DNA of 33,821 nucleotides from Acidimicrobiia bacterium (GTDB taxonomy: Bacteria > Actinomycetota > Acidimicrobiia > Acidimicrobiales > Poriferisodalaceae): positions 1-33,821 of the forward strand of contig JAJDTF010000081.1 in assembly GCA_022827265.1 (NCBI GenBank), in the 5' to 3' direction. The position numbers and the translations under genes are program-made. Of this stretch, positions 4,808 through 28,179 are shown one piece after another. The notes below the pieces were generated by a model that worked only from the letters and a program-made list of their open reading frames with translations, searched no databases and was not told where the DNA came from. Position 1 is the stretch's first letter. Each line of letters starts with the position of its first letter.

Positions 4808-7435
4808 TTATGCCGTGGAACTCGGATCGAGGATCGGATCGTCGAAGAGGCCTAGGAATCCCAAGTCCTCAAGCCACTCACCGAACTCGCCGACGATCCG
4901 GTCGGGCGGGGGCGCCTCGATGGTGATGTCAGCGCCGAAGTCGTAGGAGTCCGTCACCACGACGGTCGTCGGCGCCTCGTCGATCTCTTCCCCGAGCGCT
5001 TCGCTCAACGCTTCGAAGTTCAGCGTGAGTTCCATGCGGATGCGATGCACCCGAAGTTCGTCGTCAATCCACAGCTCGATGGGCAACTCGCTGGGCATCA
5101 ATGCAAGCGTCAGGCCCAGCAATCCGCCATCGACAGCTTCGCCAAGGGCCTCTTCCATGAGCGATCTGAAGTCAAGCGCTGACTGAACCCTGATCGTCTC
5201 GGCCCCGCGCACGGTTTCGCGTCCGACGATGGTGGCTTCAAGCACGAAATCCGCCATCTCCGAAAGATCGTTCGGCGGCGCGCACTCATCGCTGACAAGT
5301 CCCGAAGCCGGCACCGGAGGGCCGCAGTCGACACCCAGCAGCTCCATCGTCTCGCGGCCCACTGTCATCCAGCCATCGGGCAACTCGATGCCCGAACCCT
5401 GGAGCAGCTCCTCGGCAATGCTGAGCCGGGCGTACACGACATCGTCGACCGTGAGAATCTCGACAATCGACTGAGACTCAGGGTCGTACGATCGCACTCC
5501 GGTTCGGATGAAGGCGTGCGTGTTGCCGTATTCGTCGATCTCGGAATACTGCTCCTGCGTAAGGCGCTCGGCAGCGCCCGTGTAGGTAGCGGTGCGGACT
5601 CGGCTGGATTCTGTGCGTTCTGTGCTCATGGCCGCTATCACGAGTTCTCGGGCAGTGAGCTCTGTCGGATCGAGCCTGTCTGCACCGGCCAAGCCGTCGG
5701 CCCAGTCTCCGGCGATCACTTGTTGATCGCGCCATAGCGGTCTGGTCGCAACCGGTGGGTCCGACTGCCAGTAGCCCCAGCAGACAGCCTGGCCGCCAGC
5801 GCGCAACCCGCACGAGTAGGAGTCACCAGAGGCGACTGCTGTGAACGAACCACCCGGCGCATCAAGCTGCCCGGCGTCGTTCCTGCCCCAGCACACCACC
5901 TCACCGCCTGCGCGCAACCCACACGAATAGCCGAAGTCGGCTGACACGGCAGAGAACGAGCCGTGGGGCGGGTCAAGCTGCCCGTAGGTGTTGTCGCCCC
6001 AGCAGACCACCTCGCCGCCCGGGCGCAACCCGCACGAATGGTGGTAGCTGGCGGCGATGGCGACGAAAGAACCCCCCGGCGCGTCGAGCTGGCCGTCGTG
6101 GTTCCTGCCCCAGCAGACCACCTCACCGCCCGGGCGTAACCCACACGAATAGCCGGCACCCGCAGCCACGGCCGTGAACACACCGTCCGGCGCGTCAGGC
6201 CGACGGTCCCAAGAACCTCCCCAACAGACCACCTCGCCGCCGACGCGCAACCCGCACGAATGTGTACCGCTGGCGGACACCGCGGCGAAGGCACCGCCGG
6301 GCACATCGAGTTGCCCGTAGCGGCCGTCACCCCAGCAAACCACCTCGCCGTCGCTGCGCACGCCGCAGGAATGGCTATCGCCGACGGTCACAGCGCTGAA
6401 CCGACCCTGGGGCGCGTCAAGCTGGCCGTGACGGCCCTCACCCCAACAGACCACCTCGCCGCTGGCGCGCAGCCCGCACGCGTGGTCTGAACCAGTGGCG
6501 ACCATTTCGAGCCGCGCATCGGGCGGGTCAAGCTGGCCGTCGTAGTAGGTGCCCCAGCAGACCACCTCTCCATCAATGCGAATTCCACATGCATGCCGGT
6601 CGCCAGCGGATACCGCGACGAACGAACCCCCCGGCGCGTACAGCTCCCCGTCAAGCGCCCCTGCCCAGCACACCAGCTCACCGCCGGAACGCAGCCCGCA
6701 CGAGTAAAGGCCACCGGCTGTCACGGCAACGAACGAACCCTCAGGAACGTTCGGCTGCAGGCTGCCCCTGTCGCCCCAGCAGACCACCTCACCACCGGTG
6801 CGCAGCCCGCAAGAATGAACGTCGACAGCAATCTGAGCGAAAGAACCCTCCGGCGCGTCAAGCTGCCCGTCCGTGTTGTAGCCCCAGCAGACCACCTCAC
6901 CACTCGTGCGCAGCCCGCAGGAATGAAAATAGTCGACAGCAACATCAGCGAAGGGGCCCTCCGGCGCATCGAGCTGCCCGGATGCGTTGTTGCCCCAGCA
7001 GACCACCTCACCGTCGCTTCGCACACCGCAGGAATGGGCAAAGCCAGCAGCAACCGCAATGAATGAACCCTCCGGCGCATCGGCCTGCCCGCGAGAGTTG
7101 CGGCCCCAGCAGACCACCTCACCACTCGTGCGCAGCGCGCACGCATGGTGGCCGACCGACACTGCAGCGAATGAGCCATCTGGTGCCTCAAGCTGCCCGG
7201 CTGCGTCATCGCCCCAGCAGACCACCTCGCCCGAAGTGAGCAGCCCGCAGGAAAAGTCGTTCCCGGCGGACACGGCGGTGAAGGCGGTCGGGAACTCGAT
7301 GTCTGCAAGCGCTGTCCAGCGATCCTTGACAGCGAGCACCGGCCCGTCCGGACGCTGCGCGGCAGTGGGCTGTGCCAGCAGCGCCGCCACCAGCAGGATT
7401 GCTGTCGCACCCACGATGCCTGCGCGCAATCTCAT
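4808..7435 (-). CDS. Secreted RCC1-repeat protein with C-terminal lipoprotein-like domain
   Basis: An 875-residue protein with a signal peptide (residues about 1-27, ending PTAAQ). From about residue 61 it carries 14 consecutive repeats of 36-37 residues with the pattern HSCGLRxxGEVVCWGxNxxGQLDAPxGSFxAVxAG, each with two Cys. These are RCC1/BLIP-II-type repeats, expected to form one or two beta-propellers. After about residue 600 comes a domain homologous to the neighbouring lipoprotein (DGWMTV, ECAPPNDLS, ITIEAPPPDRIVGEFGE). ATG at 7435 begins the signal peptide; the frame extends 13 codons further upstream. RCC1-type propellers mediate protein binding, so an extracellular ligand-binding or scaffold role is likely, perhaps with the lipoprotein about 130 bp downstream on the same strand. 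Partner and ligand are unknown. Confidence 0.88.
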   Translation of the reverse strand: MRLRAGIVGATAILLVAALLAQPTAAQRPDGPVLAVKDRWTALADIEFPTAFTAVSAGNDFSCGLLTSGEVVCWGDDAAGQLEAPDGSFAAVSVGHHACALRTSGEVVCWGRNSRGQADAPEGSFIAVAAGFAHSCGVRSDGEVVCWGNNASGQLDAPEGPFADVAVDYFHSCGLRTSGEVVCWGYNTDGQLDAPEGSFAQIAVDVHSCGLRTGGEVVCWGDRGSLQPNVPEGSFVAVTAGGLYSCGLRSGGELVCWAGALDGELYAPGGSFVAVSAGDRHACGIRIDGEVVCWGTYYDGQLDPPDARLEMVATGSDHACGLRASGEVVCWGEGRHGQLDAPQGRFSAVTVGDSHSCGVRSDGEVVCWGDGRYGQLDVPGGAFAAVSASGTHSCGLRVGGEVVCWGGSWDRRPDAPDGVFTAVAAGAGYSCGLRPGGEVVCWGRNHDGQLDAPGGSFVAIAASYHHSCGLRPGGEVVCWGDNTYGQLDPPHGSFSAVSADFGYSCGLRAGGEVVCWGRNDAGQLDAPGGSFTAVASGDSYSCGLRAGGQAVCWGYWQSDPPVATRPLWRDQQVIAGDWADGLAGADRLDPTELTARELVIAAMSTERTESSRVRTATYTGAAERLTQEQYSEIDEYGNTHAFIRTGVRSYDPESQSIVEILTVDDVVYARLSIAEELLQGSGIELPDGWMTVGRETMELLGVDCGPPVPASGLVSDECAPPNDLSEMADFVLEATIVGRETVRGAETIRVQSALDFRSLMEEALGEAVDGGLLGLTLALMPSELPIELWIDDELRVHRIRMELTLNFEALSEALGEEIDEAPTTVVVTDSYDFGADITIEAPPPDRIVGEFGEWLEDLGFLGLFDDPILDPSSTA
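5790..7260 (-). repeat. Coding tandem repeat, 14 units of about 108-111 bp
   Basis: The repeated DNA is the coding sequence for the 14 RCC1 units described in the gene entry. The GEVVCWG core is nearly fixed, while the second half of each unit drifts. It is a place where recombination could add or remove blades and where short-read assembly could collapse copies. Confidence 0.85.
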
Positions 7436-7592
7436 CGGCACATTCTGGCCGCGTTCCAGAGGAAACCGCTGCACAACACGTCATTGGCTGCCAACGGCAT
7501 CGCTACTCGAGGACTTCGACCAGAACACCGAATGGCGTGCCGACAATGCCGACGCGAGCAGGTCGCCGCCGCTTCGTGCAGCCTCGTCCGGG

Positions 7593-25186: not shown

Positions 25187-26884
25187 TCAGCAGTTCTGAC
25201 GGACGTGGTCTCCCGATGGCGTGCGGGGTGTGCGGGGTGGGGCTGGCGTGACCGTCCAGCCCTCGCCGGGCGGTGCCGGCGCCGTGGGCGGGTGCAGCAT
25301 CAGGTTGTACTCGTGGAGGCGCTGGTGGTGGGTGTGGCACAGCAGCGCCAGATTGTTCAGGCTGGTGGGGCCGTCGTCGAACCAGTGCTCGATGTGGTGT
25401 CCTTCGCAGTGGATCGGGGCCCGGTCGCAGCCGGGCCACACGCATCCTTGGTCGCGAGCAATCAGCGCCCGGCGGATGGCTGGGGGGATGGTGCGCTTGG
25501 CGCGGCCCACGTCGAGCACTTCGCCCGGCCCGCCCATCACCACCGGTATGACCCCGGTGTCGCAGGCGATCCTGCGCAGATCGGCTGCGCCGAGCACGGT
25601 GCCGGTCTCGGTGATCGCCGTAGCGCCGGGAACGGCCAGCAGATCGTTCGCGGGTCTTGACGCTGCGCACGTGCACCCGCCGTCAGGCCGCCCGCAGGGC
25701 GGGTTGCCGCGCAGGTTGTCGAGGGTGGTGAGCACGATCATCTGCGTGGGGCTCGGCACGACCCAGCAGCCGTCACCTGGGCCGACGCCGGTGACAGCCC
25801 CAGTGTCACGGAACGCAGGTCGCGCTGGGGGTGCGCCAGCGACTGCCGCCCCTTCGGGGGCTGCGGATGCCGCTTCGGTCCCGCCAGCGGCCGACACAGC
25901 ATCTTGAGCCGCAGAGCCTGCATGCCGTACCGAGTCGGGGCTCGAAGCGTCGACGCCCGCGGAGTCCACGCCCTGCGCGAATCCAGGAGACGCAGCGTCG
26001 CCTGGCGCAGCATTCGCATCTTGGGTGTTGGCGGCGGTGAGCAGCCACACGAGCGCATCGGCGGCGCGCTGGGGGACGCTGCGCCGCTGGGATTTAGGAA
26101 GGTCCTTGTCGCTGCGCCAGTTCCGCTCGATCGCGGCCACCAAAAGACGGTTGACAGCGTCGCCGGTCAGCGCATCGAGCTTCGCACGCAAGTGCCACAT
26201 GCCGTCGTGCGAGTCGACCCACATCGATGCCGACCTCGCGGCGCGCTGGCGAGCCCGCCGCTGCGCGTCGCTCTCGCACCGCCACGCCGCCTCGGCCGCA
26301 CGCACGGTCTGCCGTGTCTGATCAGCAGTCTGGTTCTTCGCCTGTATGCACAGCTCACGCCGCACCTCGTCGGGCACTTCTGCCGCAGCCACCATCGCGG
26401 CCTGGTCAGAGTTGATGTCGCCGCGCCCGAGCGCATCAGCCACCAGGGGCTGGGCGCCCAGGGCCTGCGCCTCGCGTTCGATCCGCCGCGCCAACGCGCC
26501 GCCGATCGCGGTGGCATTGACCAGAGTCTCTGCCCCCGACGCCTCCCCACGGCGCGCGGGCAGCCGTCGCCGCACCGCCTCAGCGGCCAGCGCGCTACGT
26601 GCTCCCTCGAGCACATTGATGGCCCGCTGCACGGCCTGCGCGCACCACACCAAATCGCCGTCGTCCACAGACCGAACCGCTGCCGTGTCGACCAGCGGAA
26701 TGGCGCCAGCCAGCGGCCCAACTGCGGCATCGACCGCGTCTCGGACGGTGCCGTCGCCGCTGTCGTCGCCGCCGCACTGCTGCGCCAACCGTGCGCGAAT
26801 CTCCGCCAGGCAGGCCTTCCCCCCATGGCGGCCACCCGAGCTATGCCGGGTGCCGGCCGACCGGTGTCGTGCAACGGAGGTCAT
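25187..26884 (-). CDS. DUF222/HNH endonuclease (13E12 repeat family)
   Basis: A 565-residue protein from ATG at 26884. The N-terminal two thirds is DUF222: AINVLEGARSALAAEAVRRR, the SDQAAMVAAAE helix, RQTVRAAEAAW and LRAKLDALTGDAVNRLL. An Ala/Gly-rich linker follows, then the HNH nuclease domain from about residue 481, with Cys residues in CVWPGCDR, the HHIEHW histidines, Asn in SLNNLALLC and the final HTHHQRLHE. This architecture is the mycobacterial 13E12 (REP13E12) family, multicopy and linked to phage attachment; the cellular role is unsettled, though HNH domains cut DNA. The start lies in the last unit of the tandem array 26845-27155, where the stop of a short ORF overlaps it (ATGA). An open frame continues upstream to 27145 but is just the repeat array. 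Confidence 0.87.
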   Translation of the reverse strand: MTSVARHRSAGTRHSSGGRHGGKACLAEIRARLAQQCGGDDSGDGTVRDAVDAAVGPLAGAIPLVDTAAVRSVDDGDLVWCAQAVQRAINVLEGARSALAAEAVRRRLPARRGEASGAETLVNATAIGGALARRIEREAQALGAQPLVADALGRGDINSDQAAMVAAAEVPDEVRRELCIQAKNQTADQTRQTVRAAEAAWRCESDAQRRARQRAARSASMWVDSHDGMWHLRAKLDALTGDAVNRLLVAAIERNWRSDKDLPKSQRRSVPQRAADALVWLLTAANTQDANAAPGDAASPGFAQGVDSAGVDASSPDSVRHAGSAAQDAVSAAGGTEAASAAPEGAAVAGAPPARPAFRDTGAVTGVGPGDGCWVVPSPTQMIVLTTLDNLRGNPPCGRPDGGCTCAASRPANDLLAVPGATAITETGTVLGAADLRRIACDTGVIPVVMGGPGEVLDVGRAKRTIPPAIRRALIARDQGCVWPGCDRAPIHCEGHHIEHWFDDGPTSLNNLALLCHTHHQRLHEYNLMLHPPTAPAPPGEGWTVTPAPPRTPRTPSGDHVRQNC

Positions 26885-26973
26885 GGCCGCCACCGCAGAA
26901 ACGGGGTGTGACTGACGCCTGCGGCCAGCGGACGTCGGCCGCTGAGCGATCGGCTTCGGGCGGCGGGGGTCAT
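26881..26973 (-). CDS. Mini-ORF in repeat unit three, coupled to the HNH gene
   Basis: A 30-codon ORF begins at the ATG of unit three and ends with ...LRWRP before TGA. Its TGA overlaps the ATG of the HNH gene as ATGA, which favours translation coupling. The peptide is Arg/Ser/Pro-rich and has no recognisable domain; it may matter only as a translation relay. Existence as a translated product is inferred. Confidence 0.35.
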   Translation of the reverse strand: MTPAARSRSLSGRRPLAAGVSHTPFLRWRP

Positions 26974-27155
26974 GGCCGCCACCGCAAGTGCGGGGTGTGG
27001 CACCCGCCTGCGACCACCGGACGCCAGCCGCTGACCGGTCGGCTTCGCACCTCGAATGCCACTGCTGCCACCCCGGAAGTTGGGCGCGAGACACGGCCGC
27101 GGCCAGCAGGACTGCGCCGGGCAGCAACGGGTCGGCTTCCAGCAACGGAGGTCAT
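26970..27155 (-). CDS. Short ORF over repeat units one and two
   Basis: A 61-codon ORF starts at the first ATG of the array and reads through units one and two in frame (93 bp apart), ending with ...LRWRP, the same last residues as the 30-codon ORF after it. Its TGA overlaps the next ATG. A TANNNT element ends 7 nt before its ATG, so this codon is the probable 5' end of the whole leftward transcript. No domain is recognised. Confidence 0.35.
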   Translation of the reverse strand: MTSVAGSRPVAARRSPAGRGRVSRPTSGVAAVAFEVRSRPVSGWRPVVAGGCHTPHLRWRP

Positions 27156-27162
27156 GACGGTC

Positions 27163-27168
27163 AACGTA
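27163..27168 (-). promoter_or_regulatory. -10 hexamer TACGTT at the head of array A
   Basis: TACGTT on the minus strand ends 7 nt before ATG at 27155. This would start a leaderless mRNA at the first repeat unit, not at the HNH gene itself. Confidence 0.4.
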
Positions 27169-27322
27169 CAAGAGGGGTGTTACAAGTGTTCGTGACACCA
27201 GCCGCAACGGCGACGTCGCAGCGACGATTGGCGGGATGACCGCAGAGGGCTCATGCGCCGACAGCCGATGGCCGAAGGGCAACCCGGTCAGAAATGGGCC
27301 AGTCGTGCCGTCGCCTTGGCCA

Positions 27323-27328
27323 TACGGT
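27323..27328 (+). promoter_or_regulatory. -10 hexamer TACGGT at the head of array B
   Basis: TACGGT ends 6 nt before ATG at 27335, the first ORF of the rightward transcript leading to the DUF1697 gene. It mirrors the element at 27163-27168 on the other strand. Confidence 0.4.
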
Positions 27329-27334
27329 TCTCGC

Positions 27335-27472
27335 ATGGCTCATGCAACGCACGACACCCACGGAGAACACGCCCAGACTCGCCGCAGCGATGACACCTTC
27401 CATGAACGCCTCGCCGCCTCCATGAAGCGCCACCGCCGCATCCTCGATCGCCTCGCCCACGAGGACAGGTGA
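27335..27472 (+). CDS. Small ORF of unknown function upstream of the DUF1697 gene
   Basis: A 45-codon ORF encoding a His/Arg-rich peptide (AHATHDTHGEHAQTRR ... HRRILDRLAHEDR) with a possible C-terminal basic helix. It has a TANNNT element 6 nt upstream and stops 10 nt before the first unit of repeat array B. Its last third (ATG at 27422 onward) weakly resembles the array-B unit at base level, so it may be a diverged copy. No family is recognised and expression is unproven. Confidence 0.4.
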   Translation: MAHATHDTHGEHAQTRRSDDTFHERLAASMKRHRRILDRLAHEDR

Positions 27473-27482
27473 GCCGCCAGCA

Positions 27483-27554
27483 ATGACCATTCGCTGCGTC
27501 GCACTCCTCAGACGCGAACGGTCGACGGACACAATGGCGAGCCACCAGCCATGA
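27483..27554 (+). CDS. Mini-ORF in array B, first unit
   Basis: A 23-codon ORF beginning MTIRCVALLRRE and ending ASHQP. The start resembles the usual N-terminus of DUF1697 proteins (ALLRGINVGG) more closely than the DUF1697 gene in this window does. Its TGA overlaps the next ATG (ATGA). Function as a peptide is not implied. Confidence 0.35.
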   Translation: MTIRCVALLRRERSTDTMASHQP

Positions 27555-27622
27555 CCGCCCGCTGCGTCGTTCTTCTGGATCGGGAACAGCCGGCCGATGC
27601 AACGGCGAGCCACCAGCCATGA
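27551..27622 (+). CDS. Mini-ORF in array B, second unit
   Basis: A 23-codon ORF beginning MTARCVVLLDRE and ending ASHQP, the same last residues as the unit before. Its TGA overlaps the ATG of the DUF1697 gene, so ribosomes finishing it could restart there. Confidence 0.35.
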   Translation: MTARCVVLLDREQPADATASHQP

Positions 27623-28179
27623 CCGCCCGCTGCGTCGTGCTGCCCAATGGCATCAACGTGGGCGGGCACAACCGGGTACCCATGGCCGATCTGCGCCCCA
27701 AGCTGGCCGACGCCGGCTACACCGACCCTGTCACGATCCTCCAGAGCGGCAACATCATCGTCACCGCCGACCAGCCCGACAGTGCCACTGACCCCGCCGC
27801 AGTAGCCGCCGCACTGGCCGCCTCCGTCCAGCAATTGCCGGCCGACGAATTCGACGTCCATGTGCCCTGCGTGGCCCGCACCGCCGCCGAGATCGAAGAC
27901 ATCCTCGAGCGCAGCCCACTCGGCCACATCGCCCATGATGGATCCCGCTACCTCGTCAACTTCCTGTCGTCCGAACCAAGTCCCAATGCCATCCGCGAAC
28001 TCACCGAAGCCGACCACGCACCCGAAGTCCTCCACGTGGAAGGCTCGCAGGCATTCGTGTGGGCGCCCGAAGGCATCAGGGCGCTCCGCCTGACGTACGC
28101 ACATCTCGAGCGTCACTTCGGCGTGACCACCACGGCCCGCAACCGGAACACGCTCGAACGCATCGCAGCAAAGCTCTAG
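27619..28179 (+). CDS. DUF1697 family protein
   Basis: A 186-residue cytoplasmic protein with the DUF1697 marks: NGINVGGHNRVPMADLRPKL near residues 10-29, TILQSGNIIVTAD near 39-51, then EDILERSPLG and a C-terminal LTYAHLERHFGVTTTARNRNTLERI, where the family has TTRNWNTV. The usual ALLRG before INVGG is VLPNG here. Function of the family is unknown. The start codon is the third ATG of the 68-bp array and lies in an ATGA overlap with the preceding mini-ORF. No ribosome site is visible, so coupled initiation is likely. The ABC transporter follows 136 bp later on the same strand. Confidence 0.87.
   Translation: MTARCVVLPNGINVGGHNRVPMADLRPKLADAGYTDPVTILQSGNIIVTADQPDSATDPAAVAAALAASVQQLPADEFDVHVPCVARTAAEIEDILERSPLGHIAHDGSRYLVNFLSSEPSPNAIRELTEADHAPEVLHVEGSQAFVWAPEGIRALRLTYAHLERHFGVTTTARNRNTLERIAAKL

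Follow-up and report, generated by a model that had tools for sequence, protein, structure and literature searches.

The window, i.e., the whole stretch of 33,821 nucleotides that was analyzed, comes from an environmental actinobacterium and carries an HNH endonuclease gene on its minus strand and, divergent from it, a DUF1697 gene on its plus strand. Three diverged tandem copies of the nuclease gene's own 5' end lie ahead of that gene, giving four tandem units that start at 27155, 27062, 26973 and 26884 (spacings of 93, 89 and 89 bp) and run into the gene (Table 1). Re-reading of the DNA confirmed what a sequence-only reading had reported of these positions and spacings, of the 61- and 30-codon ORFs, of both ATGA overlaps, and of the TACGTT element 7 nt upstream of the first ATG. 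The resemblance that it saw among the four units also held, as every pair of units was identical at 44 to 60 of 89 positions, with z of 5.1 to 11.1 (60 composition shuffles each). It was mistaken in giving unit 2 an ATG, since this unit starts with GTG. The units are too diverged for the array to be an assembly artefact, and such arrays are also present in the separate assemblies of relatives.

Table 1. Features of the two divergent gene starts, in positions of the window.
Feature	Position	Strand	Remarks
HNH endonuclease gene, 565 codons + stop	25187..26884	-	Pfam HNH; Ka/Ks 0.16-0.40
Decayed promoter block, unit 4: AGTCACAC, 8 nt, TGCGGT	26892..26913	-	PWM score 17.5
Leader ORF 2, unit 3, 30 codons	26881..26973	-	TGA overlaps HNH ATG 26884
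Decayed promoter block, unit 3: TGCCACAC, 8 nt, TGCGGT	26981..27002	-	PWM score 12.0
Unit 2 start position (GTG)	27062	-	In frame inside ORF 1; promoter block unrecognisable, PWM score -20
Leader ORF 1, units 1 and 2, 61 codons	26970..27155	-	TGA overlaps ATG 26973
Intact promoter-like block, unit 1: TGTAACAC, 8 nt, TACGTT	27163..27184	-	Exact motif match; PWM score 33.7
TACGGT, -10-like, 6 nt before ATG 27335 (predicted leaderless)	27323..27328	+	Layout same in 11/11 genus genomes
DUF1697-side leader ORF, 45 codons	27335..27472	+	
DUF1697 start, first copy, 23 codons	27483..27554	+	TGA overlaps ATG 27551
DUF1697 start, second copy, 23 codons	27551..27622	+	TGA overlaps ATG 27619
DUF1697 gene, divergent neighbour	27619..28179	+	Pfam PF08002, E 9e-29

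The nuclease gene had been assigned to the DUF222/HNH type, with the last unit as its 5' end. The HNH part of this assignment was borne out by a Pfam match (PF01844) of 21.5 bits against a cut-off of 21.4. The DUF222 part was not, there being no match to PF02720 at E 0.01; two paralogues that stand behind the same promoter-like motif (L059 and L063) do match DUF222. Comparison of 36 ortholog pairs showed that the nuclease is under purifying selection, in a set for which the longer upstream start was taken for G001, G002, G003, G005, G006 and G009, the N-terminal part of these six being unclean as a result. The query used for homology (25187-26887) included one extra upstream codon.

The earlier reading saw the first -10 element alone, whereas the repeat unit contains a whole promoter-like block. 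We scored these blocks with a position weight matrix (PWM), on which exact sites of the motif score from 16.5 (minimum) with a median of 30.5, and found that the first of the four window blocks is the sole intact copy (Table 1). The A of the -10 element, which is generally critical for promoters, is gone in units 3 and 4, where TGCGGT stands in place of TANNNT. A search of the window's own genome with the 272-bp array DNA returned one match, the array itself, and no dispersed copies. Phage records gave no match, Rfam gave nothing at E 1 for positions 26700-27800 of the window, and a generic scan for sigma-70 promoters and terminators found nothing.

On the DUF1697 side of all 11 genus genomes, a short leader ORF of 8-57 codons follows 6 nt behind a TANNNT, and its stop lies 10-13 nt before the next start or, in G004, G007 and G009, overlaps it by 4 nt. 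In the window, the stop of the 45-codon ORF falls 10 nt short of 27483, where the first DUF1697 start copy begins, and the chain runs through 45, 23 and 23 codons and then the gene. The two 68-bp start copies, chained by ATGA, are found in the window alone among the 11 genomes. No promoter block was seen in these units by inspection, and a genome-wide search for the CCATGACC pair pattern returned only the DUF1697 copies. Start relays thus stand at both genes of one intergenic region, and when the window and 221 kb sampled from the 3.80-Mb genome were scanned, no third ATGA-chained start array was detected at the threshold used. Elsewhere in the window, at 5774-7253, a large minus-strand ORF (4808-7474) contains 111-bp in-frame tandem repeats, which resemble beta-propeller (RCC1-type) repeats.

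A promoter-like motif across the genus

Upstream of the nuclease start, the genus shares a motif consisting of TGTMACAC, 8 nt, TANNNT, 7 nt and ATG. The pattern TGTMACAC-N8-TANNNT had 13 exact sites in the window's own genome and 121 sites in the 11 genomes of the genus, and a reversed-pattern control gave 0 in both searches. These 121 places were reduced to 118 distinct sites for the analysis of spacing and to 115 in the later PWM and ORF analyses. With ATG, GTG and TTG counted as starts, the first long ORF began 7 nt after the -10 element at 52 of the 118 sites and 6 nt after it at 15, while the other 51 had an ORF at a different distance (57-58 nt for recA) or none.

An ORF of at least 100 codons followed 102 of the 115 sites; five second starts of array genes were left out and 97 proteins were submitted to Pfam. 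Many of the 97 are truncated where the analyzed DNA stops, which makes the domain counts lower bounds: at least 13 HNH, 10 HAD hydrolase, 9 RecA, 7 DUF222, 5 C5 methylase, 4 Cas_GSU0053, 2 NAD-dependent DNA ligase and 2 RecQ zinc-binding. In the window's own genome, the sites include those of recA, ligA, a RecQ-like helicase gene, a C5 methylase gene and HNH genes. Four loci (L125, L130, L132 and L151) are probably, by shared sequence, the Cas_GSU0053 (CRISPR type I) matches, which make up 4 of the 97; in these the ORF begins 52 nt after the block, an arrangement that hints at damage-linked CRISPR expression. At another locus, L138 (G003:C85, 1-4000), three motif-plus-start blocks were found within 4 kb, each followed by a probably truncated ORF of fewer than 180 codons, the beginning of which resembles that of the nuclease paralogues.

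The mycobacterial RecA-NDp promoter of the PafBC damage response is given as tTGTCRgtg, 8 nt, TannnT (PMC5656591). The genus motif is like it in having two blocks 8 nt apart, of which the second is TANNNT, and in standing before recA, ligA and a RecQ-like helicase gene. It differs in the first block, which is TGT(C/A)ACAC, as the search pattern required, with cac replacing gtg; three letters of this block therefore differ from RecA-NDp, and the window's own copy differs in a fourth. It differs also in standing before genes without a known repair role, e.g., those of 10 HAD hydrolases. Two adjacent WYL proteins in the window's genome (G000:C150) form a putative PafB/PafC pair, recognised by their WYL domains alone; neither had an NCBIfam match, and a comparison of one of them with solved structures (PDB) gave no match. 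Given the three divergent letters and no PafBC assignment, we infer rather than read off the damage type of the motif, and its activity as a damage promoter is likewise presumed in what follows. Among the titles and abstracts listed in literature searches, none described such repeats or the motif before DUF222 genes.

Orthologous arrays and arrays at other genes

We compared the number of units among relatives, as had been proposed with the sequence-only reading, and found that it varies and is not single throughout. An ortholog of the nuclease gene lies at the same place in nine of the 11 genus genomes, with four units in the window's genome (G000), three in G001, G002, G003 and G006 (the middle start being lost), two in G005, and one in G007, G009 and G010. 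In the protein tree, the single-unit G009 and G007 fall among multi-unit genomes, showing that unit number is labile. In the remaining two genomes, G004 and G008 (L045 and L041), no nuclease gene was read between the neighbours; in G004, a remnant of the promoter block was seen by eye at the break.

The upstream ORF ends with ATGA on the next start in all six multi-unit orthologs and is 61 codons long in G000, G001, G002, G003 and G006 and 30 codons long in G005. The predicted chain of short ORFs before the nuclease has thus been kept in every ortholog that has more than one unit. Across the in-frame step of 93, the start of unit 2 has been lost in four of five genomes and is GTG in the fifth, whereas the start at the ATGA end has been kept in all five. 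ORF 1 ends with CCATGA in each of these five genomes, and this end is invariant at an identity between the window and the others of 70-71%.

PWM scores of the orthologous blocks were 32.1 (first) and 33.5 (gene start) in G001, G002 and G006, 34.2 and 31.8 in G005, and 33.1-33.9 for the single blocks of G007, G009 and G010. Both blocks of G003 are weaker (18.4 and 24.9), the first being the weaker of the two. The earlier proposal that the mRNA begins at unit one is accordingly rated as probable: the first block scores 32.1-34.2 in eight of nine orthologs, but 18.4 in G003. The G005 array resembled the units of the focal clade at only 20-27 of 55-56 body positions (z of 0.8-2.7), and whether it arose independently of that clade appears uncertain on this comparison.

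We also analyzed the coding signal of the 61-codon leader. Between the window and its four relatives, changes numbered approximately 15 at codon position 1, 15 at position 2 and 25 at position 3, and Ka/Ks was 0.43-0.47 in the leader's own frame versus 0.71-0.94 and 1.13-1.63 in the other two. Within the close clade, Ka/Ks was 0.64-1.79, indicating no coding constraint. Because the four comparisons share one branch and none of the signal is found within the clade, we read it as retention of the frame and claim no function for the peptide. A second frame runs across the leader without a stop in each of the five genomes, which says little by itself at this high G+C; it is the HNH frame in G001, G002, G003 and G006 and the frame of ORF 2 in the window, i.e., the HNH frame stands differently to the leader in the window and in the relatives. 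The HNH frame of the window meets a single stop across the leader, at the first ATG itself.

To find further arrays, 450 bp on either side of the 115 genus sites were scanned with the PWM at a score threshold of 8. The scan returned 18 rows above this score, all at arrays, versus 0.6 expected from shuffles. In addition to the focal locus, these were L102 (G006) and L146 (G007) with a step of 92, L165 and L167 (both G005) with a step of 101, L172 (G005) with a step of 111, and L144 (G007) with a step of 307. At the four loci with steps of 92 and 101, a 32- or 35-codon ORF has its stop within ATGTTGA at the gene start. At L172 and in G121, a genome outside the genus whose array gene is DUF222-like by eye only, the step is 111 and the first start shares the frame of the gene, the fusion remaining open to the end of the analyzed DNA. 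These arrays, like the focal one, are copies of the 5' end of the gene that they precede. Some array nuclease genes may be damaged, as the HNH match of G007:C193 contains two TGA and that of G005:C51 one TAG. The array is a real and recurrent arrangement.

L144 (G007:C148, 2151-2479) is a 307-bp duplication of promoter block and gene start, in which a 98-codon ORF ends in the next block. Its step is 1 mod 3, the exception among eight start-carrying arrays, for which the residue is 2 in the focal clade, G005, the 92 and 101 designs and the DUF1697 copies, and 0 in both 111 designs. The avoidance of residue 1 had P = 0.195 with L144 included, P = 0.059 without it (0/7), and P = 0.088 when G005 was also merged into the focal clade (0/6); a frame rule across arrays is suggestive only. 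A search for the double-motif pattern in 397 genomes of the order, 395 of the class and 9 of the G121 family found arrays beyond the genus in G042, G121 and G179 only, too few for the frame rule to be provable. Arrays that carry no start codon behind the block (steps of 86, 84 and 82 in G042, 33-34 in G179) had no frame preference, as expected. That of G042 (L101; G042:C176, 7610-7801) precedes a gene that is ComM/YifB-like by eye, and that of G179 (L100; G179:C2, ~557560-557940) is a head-to-tail series of blocks before a large ORF, with nine blocks in the loose list and more by eye. A different arrangement, not of the ATGA type, was seen at L194 (position 8356), where a 46-bp tandem similarity lies at a long-ORF start on both strands.

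A proposed relay and the alternatives to it

Two known systems resemble the array. Mycobacterial interspersed repetitive units (MIRUs) are described as apparently mobile short repeats that insert at start codons and carry an ORF whose end overlaps the following gene by -4 nt (ATGA), a coupling that likely spares expression of the gene (PMC12548453). The array shares this -4 nt overlap between the repeat ORF and the start that follows it, at both junctions of the window and in the six multi-unit orthologs. Unlike MIRUs, the units are not dispersed through the genome, and each locally duplicates the 5' end of the gene itself together with a promoter-like block. The array would work like a MIRU but is no MIRU. 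In mycobacteria, leaderless short ORFs are coupled to the next gene by RTGA, with the architecture reportedly kept more than the peptide sequence (PMC4633059). The nuclease leader is similar in that the stop of a short upstream ORF overlaps the gene start, in the form of CCATGA in five of five genomes. It differs in that its short ORFs, known from sequence, repeat the start of the nuclease gene itself in tandem, and their number is variable.

We hypothesize that each unit duplicates a leaderless damage-type promoter along with the opening codons of the nuclease gene, and that ribosomes starting at the first copy terminate and reinitiate at both ATGA overlaps and so arrive at the nuclease, a reading that we hold to be somewhat better than evenly balanced. 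After damage, transcription would start near 27155, placing the 5' end of the mRNA at or next to this ATG. A ribosome would take the 5' AUG, translate 61 codons, restart at the ATGA, translate a further 30 codons and restart at the next ATGA, and the nuclease would be made. Such a relay of ribosomes along the chain appears likely from the layout of the ORFs. In the window it is predicted to be the main route, because both gene-proximal promoters have lost the -10 A, while in G001, G002, G003, G005 and G006, where a second promoter copy next to the gene still looks usable, direct initiation would operate alongside the chain. Local duplication of the promoter-start cassettes would be tolerated because ribosomes are probably handed over at the stop-start overlaps, as has been proposed for MIRUs. 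Recombination between copies probably adds and removes cassettes, and a change would persist if its step is 2 mod 3, the stop then falling on the following start, or 0 mod 3, which gives an in-frame fusion. As a broader and decidedly tentative proposal, such promoter-plus-start cassettes may be a new, self-copying kind of repeat element in a lineage with leaderless mRNAs, promoter and start codon being duplicated as one unit, a step of 2 mod 3 giving a relay, 0 mod 3 a longer protein and 1 mod 3 being purged, and decay of the inner promoters may make the relay obligatory, as in the window.

Alternatively, the copies could be neutral debris, left by slippage or recombination in the start region and without effect, with the nuclease starting at its own ATG directly or via a residual promoter. 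The decay of the window blocks of units 2-4, the single-unit orthologs (G007, G009 and G010), the lack of conservation of the leader peptide within the close clade and the nonsignificant frame rule all agree with this. However, the ATGA end has been kept in five of five genomes in spite of the divergence of the window from the others, and four more start-carrying designs (92, 101 and the two 111) leave a continuous translation path, although that of 307 does not. We consider this explanation rather improbable. A further possibility, to which we give less credence still, is that the copies are kept because several damage promoters raise or widen transcription, with the start codons as passengers. 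The two high-scoring blocks of G001, G002, G005 and G006, the two weaker ones of G003, and the start-less block arrays outside the genus, before the large ORF of G179 and the ComM-like gene of G042, are consistent with such an effect of dosage. However, three of the four window blocks have decayed, and dosage therefore cannot be what keeps the window array.

The sequence-only reading had suggested that the short ORFs meter translation, i.e., that each extra one would lower or time nuclease synthesis and that unit number would be selected as a dial. Unit numbers of 1, 2, 3 and 4 among relatives of one genus are compatible with this, and a nuclease is a plausible target for restraint. However, the sequence reveals neither a trend nor a function, arrangements with one unit occur too, and the variation in number would be explained just as well by duplications that persist simply because coupling keeps the gene translated; we regard a metering role as quite unlikely. 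Finally, translation in the HNH frame from upstream of 26884, as an N-terminal extension, is very improbable: no stop interrupts the HNH frame anywhere in the leader of G001, G002, G003, G005 and G006, or in the window from just behind the first ATG, and in-frame fusions exist in L172 and G121, but the leader Ka/Ks is lowest in the 61-codon frame, with the HNH frame among the two higher ones, and CCATGA is invariant.

Initiation on a leaderless gene is considered to depend on which AUG comes first in the mRNA. If the relay of reinitiating ribosomes is true, it would mean that a leaderless gene can survive duplication of its own start, and it would provide a route by which upstream ORFs arise. 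It also raises the question of whether termination-reinitiation alone shields leaderless genes from upstream start codons. Our analysis also points to a putative family of damage-type promoters (TGTCACAC, 8 nt, TANNNT), which in Microthrixaceae-type bacteria precedes recA, ligA, nuclease genes and a CRISPR gene.
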